Shown here piece after piece: positions 44,135-59,731 of a stretch of DNA of 64,000 nt. The DNA comes from Oceanomicrobium pacificus. Lineage in GTDB: Bacteria; Pseudomonadota; Alphaproteobacteria; Rhodobacterales; Rhodobacteraceae. The stretch spans positions 247,286 to 311,285 of the forward strand of contig NZ_WUWG01000005.1 in assembly GCF_009833495.1 (NCBI RefSeq), in the 5' to 3' direction. A program made the position numbers and the translations under genes. The notes under the pieces were generated by a model. That model ran no database searches. It saw only the letters and a list, made by a program, of their open reading frames with translations, and was not told where the DNA came from. Positions within the stretch are counted from its first letter, which is position 1. Every line of letters starts with the position of its first letter.

Positions 44135-44929
44135 TCAGACGAGGCCCAGTTCCGCATCCGAGGCGATCCGGTCATAGACATCGCGCGGCGGCATCGGCCG
44201 CTCCGGCCAGTCCGGCTCGAACGTGAAACTCGACACTTTGCGCCCCTCGGGCAGGGCGCCGTTGCCCGCACCGACCGCATAGTCGTAATAGAGTTTCACG
44301 ATCTCGTCATAAGTGACCTGCTGGGCGGCGGGATGGGCGAGACAGGCGGCCTGCCAGCGCGCGACGCGGGCATAGTCGGGGCCGTCGGGCAGGCTGAACC
44401 CTTCGTAATAGTCGAGGAACCAGAACCGCATCATCAGCGGCGTGTAGACCAGTTCGGCCAGCCCGAAATCGTCGAAGAGATAGGTGCCATCGGGGTTGAG
44501 CCGCTCCAACTCGCCGTTCAGCCAGCGATATTCCTTCAGGAGCGCCTCGCGCTTTTCGTCGCGCTTGTCGCGGTCGCGGTTCATCACCATCAGATAGCCT
44601 GCGGCTGCGAAGGGACCTTCCCGACTGATGAGCCAGCGTTCCAGTCCGCGCTCGAACGGGTCGCGGCGCGCGACGGGCGTGGCGTCGAACCGTTCCTCCA
44701 CATAGCGCATGATGATGAGGCTTTCCTTCAGGATGCGGCCCTCCTCATCCTCCAGCACCGGCAGGGCGGTGGTGCCCTGGGTCTTTTCCAGAAGCCAGTC
44801 CGGCCGCGGCTTGGTGATGTCGATCACCTGAAAATCCACTGCGTCCGACAGGCCTTTGAGCGCGAGCAGAATCTTCACCCGCTGCGAGAAAGGACAGACG
44901 GGAATATGGTAGATCAGCGGTTTTTGCAT
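44135..44929 (-). CDS. Glutathione S-transferase family protein
   Basis: 264 residues. N-terminal thioredoxin-like domain with YHIPVCPFSQRVKILLALKG, where a Cys (not Ser/Tyr) sits at the active-site helix as in omega/lambda-like GSTs, and LPVLEDEEGRILKESLIIMRYVEE, the glutathione-binding strand-turn. A helical C-terminal domain follows. Such Cys-type GSTs often reduce glutathionyl adducts. Its upstream side faces the candidate small RNA. Confidence 0.88.
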   Translation of the reverse strand: MQKPLIYHIPVCPFSQRVKILLALKGLSDAVDFQVIDITKPRPDWLLEKTQGTTALPVLEDEEGRILKESLIIMRYVEERFDATPVARRDPFERGLERWLISREGPFAAAGYLMVMNRDRDKRDEKREALLKEYRWLNGELERLNPDGTYLFDDFGLAELVYTPLMMRFWFLDYYEGFSLPDGPDYARVARWQAACLAHPAAQQVTYDEIVKLYYDYAVGAGNGALPEGRKVSSFTFEPDWPERPMPPRDVYDRIASDAELGLV

Positions 44930-45113
44930 GGGTCGGCTCCGGGCTGCGAACGGCGACAGTGGGATAATCGGATGCGCATTGGCGTGACTGTGGCAAGAGG
45001 CCGGTGGCCGATCAAGTCACGATATGCCTGTGCGGGGGGGACAATGCCTGCGGCAGGGGCACAGGACGGTGCCGGCCGGCGCCAGCAAAAACAGGCGCTG
45101 CTGGCGATCGGGC

Positions 45114-45190
45114 AAAAAAAAGGCCGAGCAAAGCTCGGCCCAAGTCCAACAGGGAGGTTGAAACGGTGCGGGAAACCGCATCCCGTTTCG
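45114..45190 (-). ncRNA. Candidate small regulatory RNA with a CUCCCU loop
   Basis: No ORF is credible here, but on the minus strand a promoter is followed by three back-to-back hairpins. Hairpin 1: GAAACGG/CCGUUUC (45189-45183 with 45166-45160) with an inner UGCGG/CCGCA. Hairpin 2: CAAC/GUUG (45160-45157 with 45150-45147) presenting the loop CUCCCU, complementary to ribosome binding sites. Hairpin 3: an 8-bp stem (45140-45133 with 45129-45122), 3-base loop and eight U (45121-45114), an ideal intrinsic terminator. The RNA would be about 76 nt. Exposed C/U loops are known in alphaproteobacterial sRNA families such as CcsR, but I cannot assign this one. Confidence 0.7.
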
Positions 45191-45196
45191 AGGGTG

Positions 45197-45225
45197 GATA
45201 TAGGTATGGGTCCTGGGCCGTTCAA
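45197..45225 (-). promoter_or_regulatory. Promoter of the candidate small RNA
   Basis: On the minus strand TTGAAC (45225-45220), exactly 17 bp, TATATC (45202-45197). The predicted start at 45189-45190 coincides with the first base of hairpin 1. Confidence 0.7.
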
Positions 45226-45226
45226 G

Positions 45227-45255
45227 AAAAAAAACGGCTGAGGCGCGCATAGCCG
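45227..45255 (-). terminator. Intrinsic terminator of the LysR gene
   Basis: CGGCT/AGCCG (45255-45251 with 45239-45235), an 11-base loop and eight T (45234-45227), 58 bases past the LysR stop. It separates the regulator transcript from the small RNA promoter that follows at once. Confidence 0.75.
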
Positions 45256-45312
45256 CTATCACCCCTGTGCATAGCTATAGCACAAAAATGGCGAAGATAT
45301 GAACAAAACCCG

Positions 45313-46206
45313 TCATTCGCGGCGCTGTTTGCGGTATTCCGCCAGTTCTTCCAGCATGAAATCGCGGAAGGCGCTGACCCGGCTGGAATGGCGCAATTCC
45401 TCCGCATAGGCAAGGTAGACGGGGATCTGGTCGCTTTCCTCCTCGGGGAGCACACGGACCAGATCGGGGAAATCGACGGGCAGATAGTCGGGCAGGGCGC
45501 CGATGCCCAGCCCGTGGAGCGCGGCCTGCAGGATGCCGAAATAATTGTTCACCGTCAGGTGCGACTGGTGGTCCTGCGCGAGGATCGGCTCCAGCCAGCG
45601 CTTGCCGGCGGACACCTGCGGCGCGTCGGAGCTTTGGGTGATCATCCTGTGGCTTGCCAGATCGTCGATCGAGCCGGGCACGCCGTTCTCGTCGAGATAG
45701 GTGCGCGAGGCATAGAAGCGAATATTCACATCCATCAGCCGGCGGCGGATGATGTCGGCCTGGCTCGGTTCCTTCATGCGGATCGCCACATCGGCCTCCC
45801 GCATCGGCAGGTCGAGGACCCGTTCCTCCAGCATCAGGTTGATCTTCAGGTTCGGGTAGCGCGCGTAGAGCCGCTTCAGGCGCGGGGCGAGCCAGAGCGT
45901 GCCGAAGCCCACCGTGGAGGTGACGCGCAATTCGCCGAACACCTCGTCCTCGCTGTCGCGGATGCGCGCGGTTGCCGTGTCGAGCCGTTTCGACATGGAG
46001 CGCGTCGCCTCGAAGAGAAGCTCGCCCTGTTCGGTCAGGATCAGCCCGCGGGCGTGGCGGTGGAAGAGCGTGACCCCGAGGCTTTCCTCCAGCCCGCGGA
46101 TCTGGCGCGACACGGCCGACTGGCTGAGCCGGAGCGCCTCGCCCGCATGGGTCAGGCTGCCCGCATCCGCCACCGCGTGAAAGATCCTCAACTTGTCCCA
46201 GTCCAC
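45313..46206 (-). CDS. LysR-family transcriptional regulator
   Basis: 297 residues from GTG 46206, which has GGAGG six bases upstream. The N-terminal winged helix is plain: WDKLRIFHAVADAGSLTHAG, LRLSQSAVSRQIRGLEESLG and LFHRHARGLILTEQGE. The C-terminal effector domain has no Cys pair pointing to a redox sensor. It is divergent from the indolepyruvate oxidoreductase gene across 236 bases that contain a T-N11-A site, so it probably controls that gene. The effector is unknown. Confidence 0.9.
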   Translation of the reverse strand: MDWDKLRIFHAVADAGSLTHAGEALRLSQSAVSRQIRGLEESLGVTLFHRHARGLILTEQGELLFEATRSMSKRLDTATARIRDSEDEVFGELRVTSTVGFGTLWLAPRLKRLYARYPNLKINLMLEERVLDLPMREADVAIRMKEPSQADIIRRRLMDVNIRFYASRTYLDENGVPGSIDDLASHRMITQSSDAPQVSAGKRWLEPILAQDHQSHLTVNNYFGILQAALHGLGIGALPDYLPVDFPDLVRVLPEEESDQIPVYLAYAEELRHSSRVSAFRDFMLEELAEYRKQRRE

Positions 46207-46386
46207 GTCCGAACCTCCGCCACGGGCGCGCGTCTCCGGCGCGCAGGGGCCTTGAAATATATTGGCAAATCCGGTCCGTCTGGCCCGTCCGCCGGTGCTA
46301 TCCGGACTATACCGGCCACCGACAAACTTGCAACGATGCCAGCGACCGATCACAATCCGTGATGGACGGTGTCACGATTATTTTCT

Positions 46387-46415
46387 TTGGAAGGTCAAGT
46401 ATCCTGACCTATAAT
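46387..46415 (+). promoter_or_regulatory. Promoter of the indolepyruvate oxidoreductase gene with LysR-type box
   Basis: TTGGAA (46387-46392), 17 bp and a perfect TATAAT (46410-46415). The spacer is filled by GGTCA-N7-TGACC (46393-46409), which contains T-N11-A (46395-46407), the LysR recognition form. A second inverted repeat, GTGA-N9-TCAC (46359-46375), lies 12 bp upstream. Confidence 0.6.
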
Positions 46416-46442
46416 CGCCTGACACGGGAATTGGGAGGTTCC

Positions 46443-49400
46443 ATGTCGCTTCATCAGGTTTCCTTGCAGGACCGCTATGATCTCGAAAAGGAGCAGGTGC
46501 TTCTGAGCGGGATCCAGGCGCTGGTGCGCCTGCCGCTCATGCAAAAGGCGCGGGACCGCGCGGCGGGGCTGAACACGGCGGGCTATGTCACCGGCTATCG
46601 CGGCTCGCCCGTGGGCGGTGTCGACCAGCAGATGCAGCGGGCGGAGAAGGTGCTGACCGCGGCAGACATCAAGTTCCAGGCCGGCCTGAACGAGGATCTG
46701 GCGGCGACCGCGCTCTGGGGATCGCAGCAGATCAACCTGCGCGGCGAGGGCCGCTTCGACGGGGTGTTCGGCCTCTGGTACGGCAAGGGACCGGGTGTCG
46801 ACCGGACGGGCGACGTGTTCCGCCATGCCAATATGGCGGGCAGCGCAGAGCATGGCGGCGTGCTCGTCTGCATGGGCGACGACCATACAGGCGAAAGCTC
46901 CACTGTCCTGCACCATTCGGAATTTGCGCTCGTCGATGTGCTGATGCCGATCCTGTCGCCCGCCGGCGTGCAGGAGGTGCTCGATTTCGGCCTGATGGGC
47001 TGGGCGATGAGCCGCTACACGGGCGCGTGGGTCGGGATCAAATGCGTCAAGGACACGATCGAGGTGACGGAGGTCGTGAACGGCGATCCGGACCGGTTGC
47101 AGATCCGCCTGCCGGACCATTTCGACATGCCGCCCGACGGGCTGAACATCCGGCTCGACGACAATCCGACCGCGCAGGAGGCGCGGCTCCACGACTACAA
47201 GCGGTTCGCGGCGGAAGCCTTCGCGCGGGCCAACCGGCTCGATCATCGGGTGCTGGGCGACGAGCGGGCGAAGATCGGCATCGTGTCGGCGGGCAAGAGC
47301 TGGCTCGACACGGTCCATGCGCTGGATCTGCTCGGGATCGACGCGGCCGAGGCCAAGCGGCTCGGCATCACCACCTACAAGGTCGGCATGGTCTGGCCGC
47401 TCGACATGCGCTCGCTGCGCGACTGGGCCGATGATCTCGACCTGATCATCGTGGTGGAGGAGAAGCGCAAGCTGATCGAGGTGCAGATCAAGGAAGCGAT
47501 CTTCGACGACAGGCACGGGCGGCGGGTGATCGGCTGGAAGAAAGAGAACAGGGAGGTTCTCTTCTCGGTCAAGGGTGCGCTCGATCCGGTGACGGTGGCC
47601 CGCAAGCTGGGGGGCGTGCTGGCCGAGGAGGGCGTGACCTCCGAGAAGCTGAAGGCCGCGCTTTCGGTGCTCGATGCCGCCGCCACGGCCGACAATTCGG
47701 AGGAAATTGCCGCCCGCCTGCCGTGGTTCTGCTCGGGCTGCCCGCATAACAGTTCAACCAAGCTGCCCGAGGGCGCGCGCGCTTATGCGGGCATCGGCTG
47801 CCATTACATGGTCCAGTGGATGGACCGCGAAACGGTCGGCTTCACCCATATGGGGGGCGAGGGGGCCAACTGGATCGGCGAGGCGCCGTTTTCCACCCGT
47901 GACCATGTGTTCCAGAACCTCGGGGACGGGACCTACAACCATTCCGGCGTGCAGGCGATCCGAGCGGCGCTGGCGGCGGGTGATGTGAACATCACCTACA
48001 AGATCCTGTTCAACGATGCGGTCGCGATGACGGGCGGCCAGCACAATGAGGGCGACCTGACCGCCCAGCAGATCGCGCGCGAACTGCTGGCGATGGGCGT
48101 GCGCGAGGTGCATTGCGTCTATGACCCGAAGGAGGAGGTGGACCTGAAAGCCTTCCCCGCGGGTGTGAAGCTGCACGAGCGGCGCGACTTGCAGGCGGTG
48201 CAGAAACAGTTGCAGGGGGTGAAGGGCGTCTCGGCGCTCATCTACGTGCAGACCTGCGCGGCGGAAAAGCGCCGCCGTCGCAAGCGCGGGCTCTTCCCCG
48301 ACCCCGACCGGCGCGTCTTCATCAACCCGTCTGTCTGCGAGGGCTGCGGCGATTGCGGCGTGGTGTCGAACTGCGTCTCGGTCCTGCCGCTGGAGACCGA
48401 GTTCGGCCGCAAGCGGCAGATCGACCAGTCGAGCTGCAACAAGGATTTTTCCTGCGTGGACGGGTTCTGCCCCAGTTTCGTGACGCTCGAAGGGCCGGAG
48501 TTGCGCAAGCCCGAGGCGCTGGAGATCGACCTGCCGGACTTGCCGGAACCGGACCTGCCCGTGATCGACGGGACGCACAATCTGGTCATCACCGGCGTCG
48601 GCGGCACGGGCGTTGTGACGGTGGGCGCGCTTCTGGCCATGGCCGCACGGCTCGAGGGCAAGGGCGCGGGTGTCATGGAAATGGCCGGTCTCGCCCAGAA
48701 GGGCGGCGCGGTCCATATCCACTGCCGCATTGCCGAAAGCCCGGAGGCGATTTCCGCGATCCGCGTGGCGGTCGGAGAAGCGCATGGCGTGATCGGCGGC
48801 GATCTGGTCGTCGCAGCCGGGCCGAAGACGCTGGGGCTGATGGCGCGGGGGCGGACGCGGGCGGTCTGCAACCATCATGAGATCATCACCGGCGAGTTCA
48901 CCCGCAACCGCGAATTCCATCTGCCGATGGACCGGATGGGCATGGCGATCCGGGCCCGTCTGGGCGAGGAGGCGTTGCAGATGCTCGACGCGACCAAGCT
49001 GGCCGAGCGGATGCTGGGCGATGCCATCTACGCCAACGTGCTGATGCTCGGCGCGGCCTGGCAGGCGGGGCTCGTGCCGCTCTCCTCCGAGGCCATAGCC
49101 GAAGCGATCCGGCTGAACGGCGCGGGGGTGGAGGGCAACCTGCGGGCCTTCGAGATCGGGCGCTGGGCGATTGCCGCGCCGGATGCCGCCACGGCCGCCA
49201 TCGCGCCGCGCGAACAGGCGGCAACGCCGGATGCGGAGGCTGCGCGCGCGATCCGCCGCGCCCATGTCGAAGCCTATCAGGATGCCGGTCTTGCGGCGCG
49301 CTACGACGCGCGGGTGGCATCGGCCCTTCAGGCCGATCCGGACTTCGGTGCGGCGCTGGCCAAGGGCTATCACAAGCTCCTGACCTACAAGGATGAATAT

Positions 49401-49865
49401 GAGGTCGCGCGGCTGCATCTGGAGACGTTTGAGGAGGCCGTGGCGCGGCAGTTTTCAGGTTATCGCAGCTTCCGCATCCACATGGCACCGCCGCTGCTGG
49501 CCCGCAAGGGGCCGGACGGGCGGCCGCGCAAGATGGCCTTCGGGCCGTGGATTATGCCGGTCTTCCGGATGCTGGCGGGCATGAAACGGCTGCGGGGCCA
49601 TTGGGCCGATCCGTTCGGGCACACGGCCGAGCGGAAGATGGAACGCGCGCTCATCGCGGAATATGAGCGCGACATGGAGGAGGTGCAGGCCGGCCTGACG
49701 CCCCAGACCCGCGACATTGCCATCGCGCTGGCCGAACTGCCCCTGCAGATCCGTGGCTTCGGCCATGTGAAGGCGGCAGCGGCGGCCGCTGCGGCCAAGC
49801 GGCGCGAGGAACTGCTCGCGGCATTCCGCGCGGGCGGAACGCCGGTCGCGGAGGCAGCGGAGTAG
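46443..49865 (+). CDS. Indolepyruvate ferredoxin oxidoreductase, fused subunits
   Basis: 1140 residues; combines in one chain the IorA-like and IorB-like parts that archaea encode separately. Oxidatively decarboxylates aryl pyruvates from aromatic amino acids to acyl-CoA. The N-terminal pyrimidine-binding part (NTAGYVTGYRGSPVGGVDQQ) is followed by the diphosphate-binding region (GIGCHYMVQWM, MGGEGANWIGEAP), an iron-sulfur cluster motif CEGCGDCGVVSNC (C632, C635, C638), and the gamma domain (TGVGGTGVVTVGALLAMAA). ATG 46443 follows GGGAGG. The divergent LysR regulator is the likely control. Confidence 0.92.
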   Translation: MSLHQVSLQDRYDLEKEQVLLSGIQALVRLPLMQKARDRAAGLNTAGYVTGYRGSPVGGVDQQMQRAEKVLTAADIKFQAGLNEDLAATALWGSQQINLRGEGRFDGVFGLWYGKGPGVDRTGDVFRHANMAGSAEHGGVLVCMGDDHTGESSTVLHHSEFALVDVLMPILSPAGVQEVLDFGLMGWAMSRYTGAWVGIKCVKDTIEVTEVVNGDPDRLQIRLPDHFDMPPDGLNIRLDDNPTAQEARLHDYKRFAAEAFARANRLDHRVLGDERAKIGIVSAGKSWLDTVHALDLLGIDAAEAKRLGITTYKVGMVWPLDMRSLRDWADDLDLIIVVEEKRKLIEVQIKEAIFDDRHGRRVIGWKKENREVLFSVKGALDPVTVARKLGGVLAEEGVTSEKLKAALSVLDAAATADNSEEIAARLPWFCSGCPHNSSTKLPEGARAYAGIGCHYMVQWMDRETVGFTHMGGEGANWIGEAPFSTRDHVFQNLGDGTYNHSGVQAIRAALAAGDVNITYKILFNDAVAMTGGQHNEGDLTAQQIARELLAMGVREVHCVYDPKEEVDLKAFPAGVKLHERRDLQAVQKQLQGVKGVSALIYVQTCAAEKRRRRKRGLFPDPDRRVFINPSVCEGCGDCGVVSNCVSVLPLETEFGRKRQIDQSSCNKDFSCVDGFCPSFVTLEGPELRKPEALEIDLPDLPEPDLPVIDGTHNLVITGVGGTGVVTVGALLAMAARLEGKGAGVMEMAGLAQKGGAVHIHCRIAESPEAISAIRVAVGEAHGVIGGDLVVAAGPKTLGLMARGRTRAVCNHHEIITGEFTRNREFHLPMDRMGMAIRARLGEEALQMLDATKLAERMLGDAIYANVLMLGAAWQAGLVPLSSEAIAEAIRLNGAGVEGNLRAFEIGRWAIAAPDAATAAIAPREQAATPDAEAARAIRRAHVEAYQDAGLAARYDARVASALQADPDFGAALAKGYHKLLTYKDEYEVARLHLETFEEAVARQFSGYRSFRIHMAPPLLARKGPDGRPRKMAFGPWIMPVFRMLAGMKRLRGHWADPFGHTAERKMERALIAEYERDMEEVQAGLTPQTRDIAIALAELPLQIRGFGHVKAAAAAAAAKRREELLAAFRAGGTPVAEAAE

Positions 49866-59329: not shown

Positions 59330-59660
59330 GGAATCAGCGAAGAAATTGAAAATGCAGGCTTCTGTTGCCAGGTGCCTGCGAACCCCGCCTGAAACTGCTA
59401 GGTCTCAGGACTTAGATTTCGGTATTTCGCACTGCTTACGCAGCGAGAGCAACCGGAGCACGATTGTCGTTTGCAACTATGCTTTTTACGCCGATAACGG
59501 TGGCCGTCCGCCGAGTGAAAGCAACATCTTTACACGTCCGTCGATCCTGTTTCGGCCCCATGATCCCCAAACGAAGGATGTTGGTGGAGCCGCCGGGTAC
59601 CGCCCCCGGGTCCGATCCGCTTATTACATGCGCGTTTATCACCATAGTCCCCGGAGGAAC
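59330..59660 (-). ncRNA. ssrA: Transfer-messenger RNA, circularly permuted two-piece form
   Basis: Rescues stalled ribosomes. Order on the minus strand: acceptor piece first, with a T-arm region and an encoded CCA ending at 59582; a 22-base intervening sequence (59581-59560); then the coding piece starting GGGGCCG at 59559. GGGGCCG pairs with CGGCUCC next to ACCA to close the acceptor stem, joining the two pieces. The tag is read from GCA 59474 to the stop at 59436: ANDNRAPVALAA. A GCAGGC/GCCTGC hairpin (59354-59379) belongs to the pseudoknot region. The outer ends are approximate. Confidence 0.92.
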
Positions 59661-59666
59661 GGATCA

Positions 59667-59695
59667 AATATAGGCCCGCGCGCGGCGGATTTGAA
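59667..59695 (-). promoter_or_regulatory. tmRNA promoter
   Basis: On the minus strand TTCAAA (59695-59690), 17 bp, TATATT (59672-59667); predicted start near 59660. It lies 37 bases past the DUF1194 stop. Confidence 0.6.
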
Positions 59696-59731
59696 GGGGG
59701 AAGTTGGCAGCCTGCGCCGTTCTGCGGCCCG

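Follow-up and report, generated by a model that had tools for sequence, protein, structure and literature searches.

Which RNA is encoded on the minus strand between a LysR-family regulator gene and a glutathione-S-transferase-like (GST) gene of Oceanomicrobium pacificus? A preliminary description of the window (the whole stretch of 64,000 nt analysed here) had read the unit as an unassigned small RNA whose layout was not recognised. That reading has to be corrected, since SorY (formerly RSs1543), a published oxidative-stress sRNA of Rhodobacter sphaeroides, has the same layout. We consider it very probable that the window gene is the ortholog of R. sphaeroides SorY; its RNA would be stress-induced, probably Hfq-bound, and is predicted to pair with Shine-Dalgarno regions.

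SorY and SorX are R. sphaeroides sRNAs that depend on RpoHI/RpoHII, and both were co-immunoprecipitated with Hfq; SorY limits the import of malate, while SorX regulates the uptake of spermidine (PMC5036791). Hfq binding of SorY is reported in PMC5036791 and PMC7866481. SorY has its own promoter with a mapped start at 1,632,642 and influences the stability of takP mRNA (PMC6238624), and it is reported as a primary transcript without processing from an mRNA (PMC8307010). The SorY literature found concerned this one species, and none was found on family-wide SorY or on a LysR linkage, which the original SorY/SorX papers may mention.

Layout and promoter of the sRNA locus

The features of the locus are listed in Table 1. 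The promoter named in the preliminary description could be read directly from the minus strand as CTTGAAC-16-CTATATC or, written as hexamers, TTGAAC (45225-45220), 17 nt and TATATC (45202-45197). With TTG counted as -36 to -34, the predicted +1 is G45189 and thus the first base of the 5' hairpin, as had been proposed; the alternative +1 at 45191 comes from the position relative to the mapped start of R. sphaeroides SorY. The bases published as over-represented are TTG at -36 to -34, C-37 and T-9 for RpoHI, and C-14 and T-13 for RpoHII (PMC3441632). With +1 at 45189 the window promoter has C-37, TTG, C-14, T-13 and T-9, i.e., all of the RpoHI/RpoHII bases, and it scored 12/12 (best of the four -10 forms allowed). 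A sigma-70 promoter was rejected as a candidate, because the scan listed none in 44700-45700; the scan rule demands a second hexamer that ends in T, which leaves out TATATC.

Table 1. Features of the sRNA locus and its neighbours in the window.
Feature	Position	Strand	Basis
-35 element CTTGAAC, RpoH-type promoter (C-37, TTG -36 to -34)	45220..45226	-	sequence; PMC3441632; relatives
-10 element CTATATC (C-14, T-13, T-9)	45197..45203	-	sequence; PMC3441632; promoter score 12/12
SorY-type sRNA, 76 nt, predicted +1 45189 (or 45191)	45114..45189	-	Rfam match, fold, model R1
5' hairpin, 7 + 5 bp	45160..45189	-	fold; same kind of hairpin in relatives
Single-stranded core ACCUCCCUGUUGGAC, predicted seed	45144..45158	-	sequence, Rfam match, fold, alignment
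Anti-Shine-Dalgarno CCUCCCU within core	45157-45151	-	sequence, fold
Intrinsic terminator, 9-bp stem (45141-45121) + U8 to 45114	45114..45141	-	pattern scan, fold, pair counts in relatives
Terminator-like hairpin + U8 after LysR gene, upstream of sRNA promoter	45227..45257	-	fold
LysR-family regulator gene, start codon inferred	45313..46206	-	Pfam; synteny
GST-like gene	44135-44929	-	Pfam

The 76-nt RNA folded at -35.4 kcal/mol compared with a mean of -20.7 (sd 2.98) for shuffled sequences (z -4.93), and none of 200 shuffles folded as well. Its terminal hairpin with eight U was recovered as described. The second hairpin, which had been said to present CUCCCU, did not hold up: a 2-bp loop around this motif occurred in the MFE structure only and was gone from the centroid, and the segment is a single-stranded linker with no hairpin loop. 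Its complementarity to ribosome binding sites stands, as an anti-Shine-Dalgarno segment. The separate LysR terminator reported just upstream is present, but it is weaker, with a 7-bp stem (45257-45233) and an 8-U run (45234-45227) that abuts the -35 box of the sRNA; the 65-nt stretch gave a z of -1.64, and 16 of 200 shuffles folded as well. The unit has its own promoter sequence and terminator, both kept in relatives, which agrees with the proposed independent transcript of about 76 nt.

On the other side of the LysR gene and divergent from it, the window carries a large oxidoreductase gene with POR, TPP and DUF6537 domains by Pfam (46359-49865, plus strand). This oxidoreductase was found by tblastn in 70 SorY-typed loci, the window's included, so the block of sRNA, LysR and oxidoreductase is often kept.

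Rfam matches and distribution of the two types

At its own cut-offs, Rfam named tmRNA alone in the window and gave no sRNA name at 45114-45189. That tmRNA gene, of the alphaproteobacterial type, lies at 59351-59699 on the minus strand (308 bits; the permuted-tmRNA model matches too). When the cut-off was lifted, the covariance search proposed in the preliminary description gave an end-to-end match to SorY (RF02651, model 1-83 of 83) with 62.8 bits and an E-value of 2.7e-12. SorX (RF02784) matched at the same place with 45.7 bits (E 5.4e-10) and an identical core, and suhB/MmgR (RF00519) with 29.3 bits (E 4e-4). The gathering cut-offs are 111, 46.6 and 41 for SorY, SorX and suhB, respectively. 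The window RNA is therefore under the SorY cut-off and misses that of SorX by 0.9 bit, and we term it a SorY ortholog and not a curated member of RF02651, because 62.8 bits is less than 111.

In a search of the family genomes with the SorY model (E <= 0.001), matches were found in 185/198 genomes compared to 0/14 control genomes. The curated SorY cut-off was passed by a single one of the 198, G051, which is R. sphaeroides 2.4.1 by its coordinates: the SorY match (L017) lies at 1632645 against the mapped 1,632,642, and the SorX match at 2598225 against the mapped start 2,598,224 (PMC6238624). The SorX model matched in 188/198 family genomes (157 over its cut-off) and in 1/14 controls. SorX reportedly is called conserved in the title of its paper. 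Neither model matched at E <= 0.001 in nine of the 198 genomes (G014, G029, G033, G054, G058, G089, G101, G135, and G166). Closely spaced second SorY- or SorX-like copies were seen in L210 (about 1152 and 1334, minus strand) and in G147, G181, G189, G022, and G183.

Since the SorY and SorX models match each other's RNAs, the copies were typed by the SorX 5' hairpin instead. The fetched loci held 215 core copies, of which six were dropped as duplicates or for N, leaving 209 (158 SorY-typed and 51 SorX-typed); the weak own-genome loci L002-L016 were excluded from this core scan. The SorY-typed total is slightly too high, because the type rule let in some SorX-like copies: R. sphaeroides SorX itself (L059) and, by eye, L083, L086, and L190. 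The named loci (names for 80 of 118, among the matches listed) are uninformative on core conservation, as they were collected with a pattern that fixes the core.

A LysR gene directly upstream on the same strand accompanied 138/158 SorY-typed copies compared with 0/51 SorX-typed ones, and the upstream LysR proteins had a median identity of 70% to that of the window. The R. sphaeroides SorY locus also has LysR upstream, with 72% identity. A promoter score of at least 10/12 was reached by 116/157 SorY-typed copies (on average 3.4 and at most 7 in 50 rounds of shuffling), compared to 1/51 SorX-typed copies (shuffled mean 0.6); the promoter consensus was written after viewing these sequences, and published work names the same bases. 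Since the upstream LysR gene and the RpoH-type promoter split SorY-typed from SorX-typed copies, the window RNA falls on the SorY side. It is, by its sequence features, a SorY ortholog, with a full-length match, the shared LysR neighbour and the RpoH-type promoter sequence all present.

The window RNA has in common with R. sphaeroides SorY the core, the terminator start ACCUCCCUGUUGGACUUGGGCCGAGC and a 5' hairpin at the start, and both loci have the RpoH-type promoter and the upstream LysR gene. It differs from that RNA in its 5' hairpin, which is shorter and of another sequence. Moreover, a single RpoH gene over the cut-off was found in the window's genome (372 bits, with a model that may not find an RpoHII), and for the window RNA the targets and the induction are predicted. 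A second match of 139.6 bits to the RpoH model was in a 674-residue frame, which we take to be RpoD. With one RpoH gene over the cut-off, control by two RpoH factors, as in R. sphaeroides, may not hold here.

Structure conservation and alternative readings

For the structure analysis, the 158 SorY-typed copies were reduced to the 129 that scored 9 or more for the promoter, had a fitting spacing and carried a U run, and to 120 after a redundancy filter. The 5' part folded better than its shuffles, with a median z of -3.39 (114/120 below -2), and the 5' hairpin ended 0-2 nt before the core in 118/120 copies. The family-wide model R1 scored the window RNA at 72.2 bits, the window being among its own 58 sequences. 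The 5' hairpin was missing from the RNAalifold structure for R1, probably owing to misalignment by MAFFT, and the hairpins were therefore tested singly and in a same-length group. In 27 copies of equal length, 70.7% of the 5'-stem cells paired (shuffled maximum 68.2%; slid versions 44-54%) and 33 cells were doubly changed (shuffled maximum 30; slid versions 18-32). Pairs with a double change numbered 11 and did not exceed the controls (mean 7.9 and maximum 12 in shuffles; 7-11 in slid versions). The covariation support for the 5' hairpin is moderate, since pairing exceeds the controls, doubly changed cells exceed the slid versions only barely, and double-change pairs do not exceed them. In the terminator stem of the relatives, 98.3% of the cells were paired, with nine doubly changed cells compared with 1.2 in shuffles. 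Conserved hairpins and compensatory changes, whose absence the preliminary description had named as evidence against an sRNA, were thus found on sequence, with good support for the terminator and moderate support for the 5' hairpin.

SorX (RSs2461) has a terminator too, and its core differs from that of the window RNA by single changes only. SorX is cut from the ompR-1 3' UTR (PMC8625941), and an RNA of its type would here be released by RNase E from the 3' UTR of the upstream mRNA. Besides the near-threshold SorX score and the shared core, the names given by Rfam speak for this: at its own cut-offs, 20 SorY-typed loci (L194-L213) yielded 13 SorX names, no SorY name and seven loci without an sRNA name, although one of the 13 names, that of L210, belongs to a second copy. 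We nevertheless regard the SorX reading as very unlikely, because an RpoH-type promoter belongs to the window RNA itself and a terminator-like hairpin closes the LysR gene before it. Moreover, the CCC...GGG 5' hairpin that marks the SorX-typed copies is missing from the window RNA, which lies beside a LysR gene, as no SorX-typed copy does. SorY-type loci beside LysR are labelled SorX in 13/20 cases, which means that SorX counts taken from Rfam pool two types of gene. SorY itself is named poorly by Rfam (one genome at the cut-off), and the window copy is just below both cut-offs.

An alphaR8/MmgR/SisA-D RNA (Rfam suhB) has, like the window RNA, a weak hairpin, a single-stranded CCUCCCU and a GACUUGGGCCG-like terminator start, which is reflected in the suhB match. 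However, that match is below 41, and the alphaR8 core UUUCCUCCCU, the family motif, lacks the GUUG insert and is absent from the window RNA. The genome moreover has a better copy elsewhere (C1:1223275-1223346, minus strand; L254:1501-1572) with 54.9 bits, next to another neighbour: it is convergent with a gene read by eye as N-formylglutamate amidohydrolase, the usual alphaR8 neighbour (PMC12559287). This assignment is accordingly even less probable than SorX. Equally improbable is that the RNA serves the GST gene downstream as its leader or attenuator and is no trans-acting sRNA. The GST start codon is on the same strand, about 185 nt past the sRNA terminator, but among the typed loci tblastn (1e-10) found the GST only at the window's own, while LysR is widely kept, and the conserved part is the sRNA core; the GST leader was rejected on this basis. 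A chance cluster of hairpins without function is the least credible reading: the locus is known from sequence alone, but the family-wide matches, which the controls lacked, and the kept promoter and synteny argue against chance.

The likeness to CcsR-type sRNAs in the preliminary description was right in one respect: CcsR1-4 are, from their descriptions, stress-induced RNAs with anti-Shine-Dalgarno motifs, as SorY is. They differ in being derived from the ccaF1 3' UTR, a point also taken from description, and SorY and SorX fit better; the comparison with CcsR is by description, and none of the 12 Rfam matches obtained in the window with the cut-off lifted was from a family named CcsR.

A class-wide search with R1, run with rough E-values and without control genomes, gave matches in 104/289 genomes at E <= 0.01; scores of at least 60 bits were confined to the four genomes belonging to the same family, and the maximum elsewhere was 44.4 bits. 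At several outside-family loci a similar core precedes AACUUG or GACUUG, with a terminator after it; some were BjrC1505 or MmgR by Rfam, and others had no sRNA name. BjrC1505 (RF02356) has a CCUCCCUGUU-GACUUG-like core and terminator in L247 and L248, but its model gave only 18 bits (E 0.51) at the window locus. Loci from other alphaproteobacterial families (L239-L244, L246, L250, and L251, at about 1501-1590) carried CCUCCCUGUU-type cores and terminators with no Rfam sRNA match at the gathering cut-off. As a tentative idea that we hold to be rather unlikely as a whole, SorY, SorX, BjrC1505 and alphaR8/MmgR might form a single sRNA superfamily of the Alphaproteobacteria, built from a hairpin, a CCUCCCU segment with GACUUG as its tail and a terminator. 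SorY would be the RpoH-driven Rhodobacteraceae branch of it and would, under stress, lower organic-acid uptake by TRAP transporters in general and not through takP alone. Since an MmgR is also present in the window's genome, SorY could at most be a paralogous branch.

Predicted targets and role in the family

In the window's genome, 14 sites of the form CAGGGAGG-N3-10-ATG were found compared with two for the reversed control. Two of the 14 precede TRAP DctP genes (L316, and L325, which is the same gene as L276), and two others (L315 and L323) are doubtful as start sites, since they lie inside open frames that extend upstream for more than 500 codons. The proteins downstream of ten of the sites were run on Pfam and came out as a TRAP DctP solute-binding protein, a purine-phosphorylase-like protein, a carboxyl-transferase, a molybdopterin oxidoreductase, an NAD-binding dehydrogenase, an aldo/keto reductase, an EamA transporter, a cupin, a glucose/sorbosone dehydrogenase and an enolase-superfamily protein. 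Two other searches were discarded. The hits of CCAACAGGGAGG-N4-9-ATG (93/198 genomes), where compared, mostly turned out to be the sRNA genes read on their antisense strand, and the 99 sites for the 15-mer with up to three mismatches (control 47) were not used as targets.

R. sphaeroides takP (L268) served as the positive control, with a predicted pairing of -24.2 kcal/mol, the best of its nine DctP genes. L268 is PDB 2hzk over the whole length (365 residues, E 7e-255), which we presume to be TakP. Among 127 DctP starts from 29 genomes, a part of all DctP matches, the median predicted pairing was -16.4 compared to -12.4 at 585 other gene starts (p ~1e-20). Against cores with permuted CCUCCCU flanks, the DctP excess had a p of 0.087, and 21/127 DctP starts compared with 58/585 others had p<=0.05 (Fisher p 0.026). 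As this excess is not significant, the strong pairing is mostly due to strong GGGAGG Shine-Dalgarno sequences. At an equal Shine-Dalgarno score of 6, DctP starts reached -17.7 (85 starts) and others -15.0 (105 starts). The median differed little between genomes with a SorY match (-16.5, 99 starts) and those without (-15.9, 28 starts, five genomes); of the two genomes with neither SorY nor SorX, G014 paired poorly (-9.6) and G029 well (-17.0). A takP-like subset with an MDRRS/MERRN-type start (9/127) had a median of -19.7 compared to -16.0 (p 0.002; excess p 0.02); the ranking was already known when this subset was picked, and two of its nine starts belong to genomes in which SorY had no match. 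The best TakP-like genes of the window's genome are 34-37% identical to TakP.

Specific pairing with TRAP transporter genes is no more than suggestive. The most likely targets are the relatives of takP, for which regulation by SorY is published, among the TRAP-type genes for organic-acid transport; a takP-like target is plausible, and a TRAP-wide regulon only possible. In the proposed mechanism, RpoH-RNA polymerase would likely transcribe the SorY ortholog under heat or oxidative stress, and Hfq would likely bind it, by analogy with R. sphaeroides SorY. The single-stranded CCUCCCUGUUGGAC is predicted to pair, via CCUCCCU, with Shine-Dalgarno regions; the alphaR8 RNA SisA represses through this sort of pairing with Hfq, as shown by compensatory mutation (PMC12559287). 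The translation of mRNAs for uptake and carbon catabolism would then fall, and the cell would take up less organic acid or other carbon.

Copies of this RNA are present in most sampled genera beside the same LysR gene and with an RpoH-type promoter, so that SorY looks like a core stress RNA of the family. Since it is kept across the family in this setting, the function of SorY, so far described in R. sphaeroides, is open to comparative testing.
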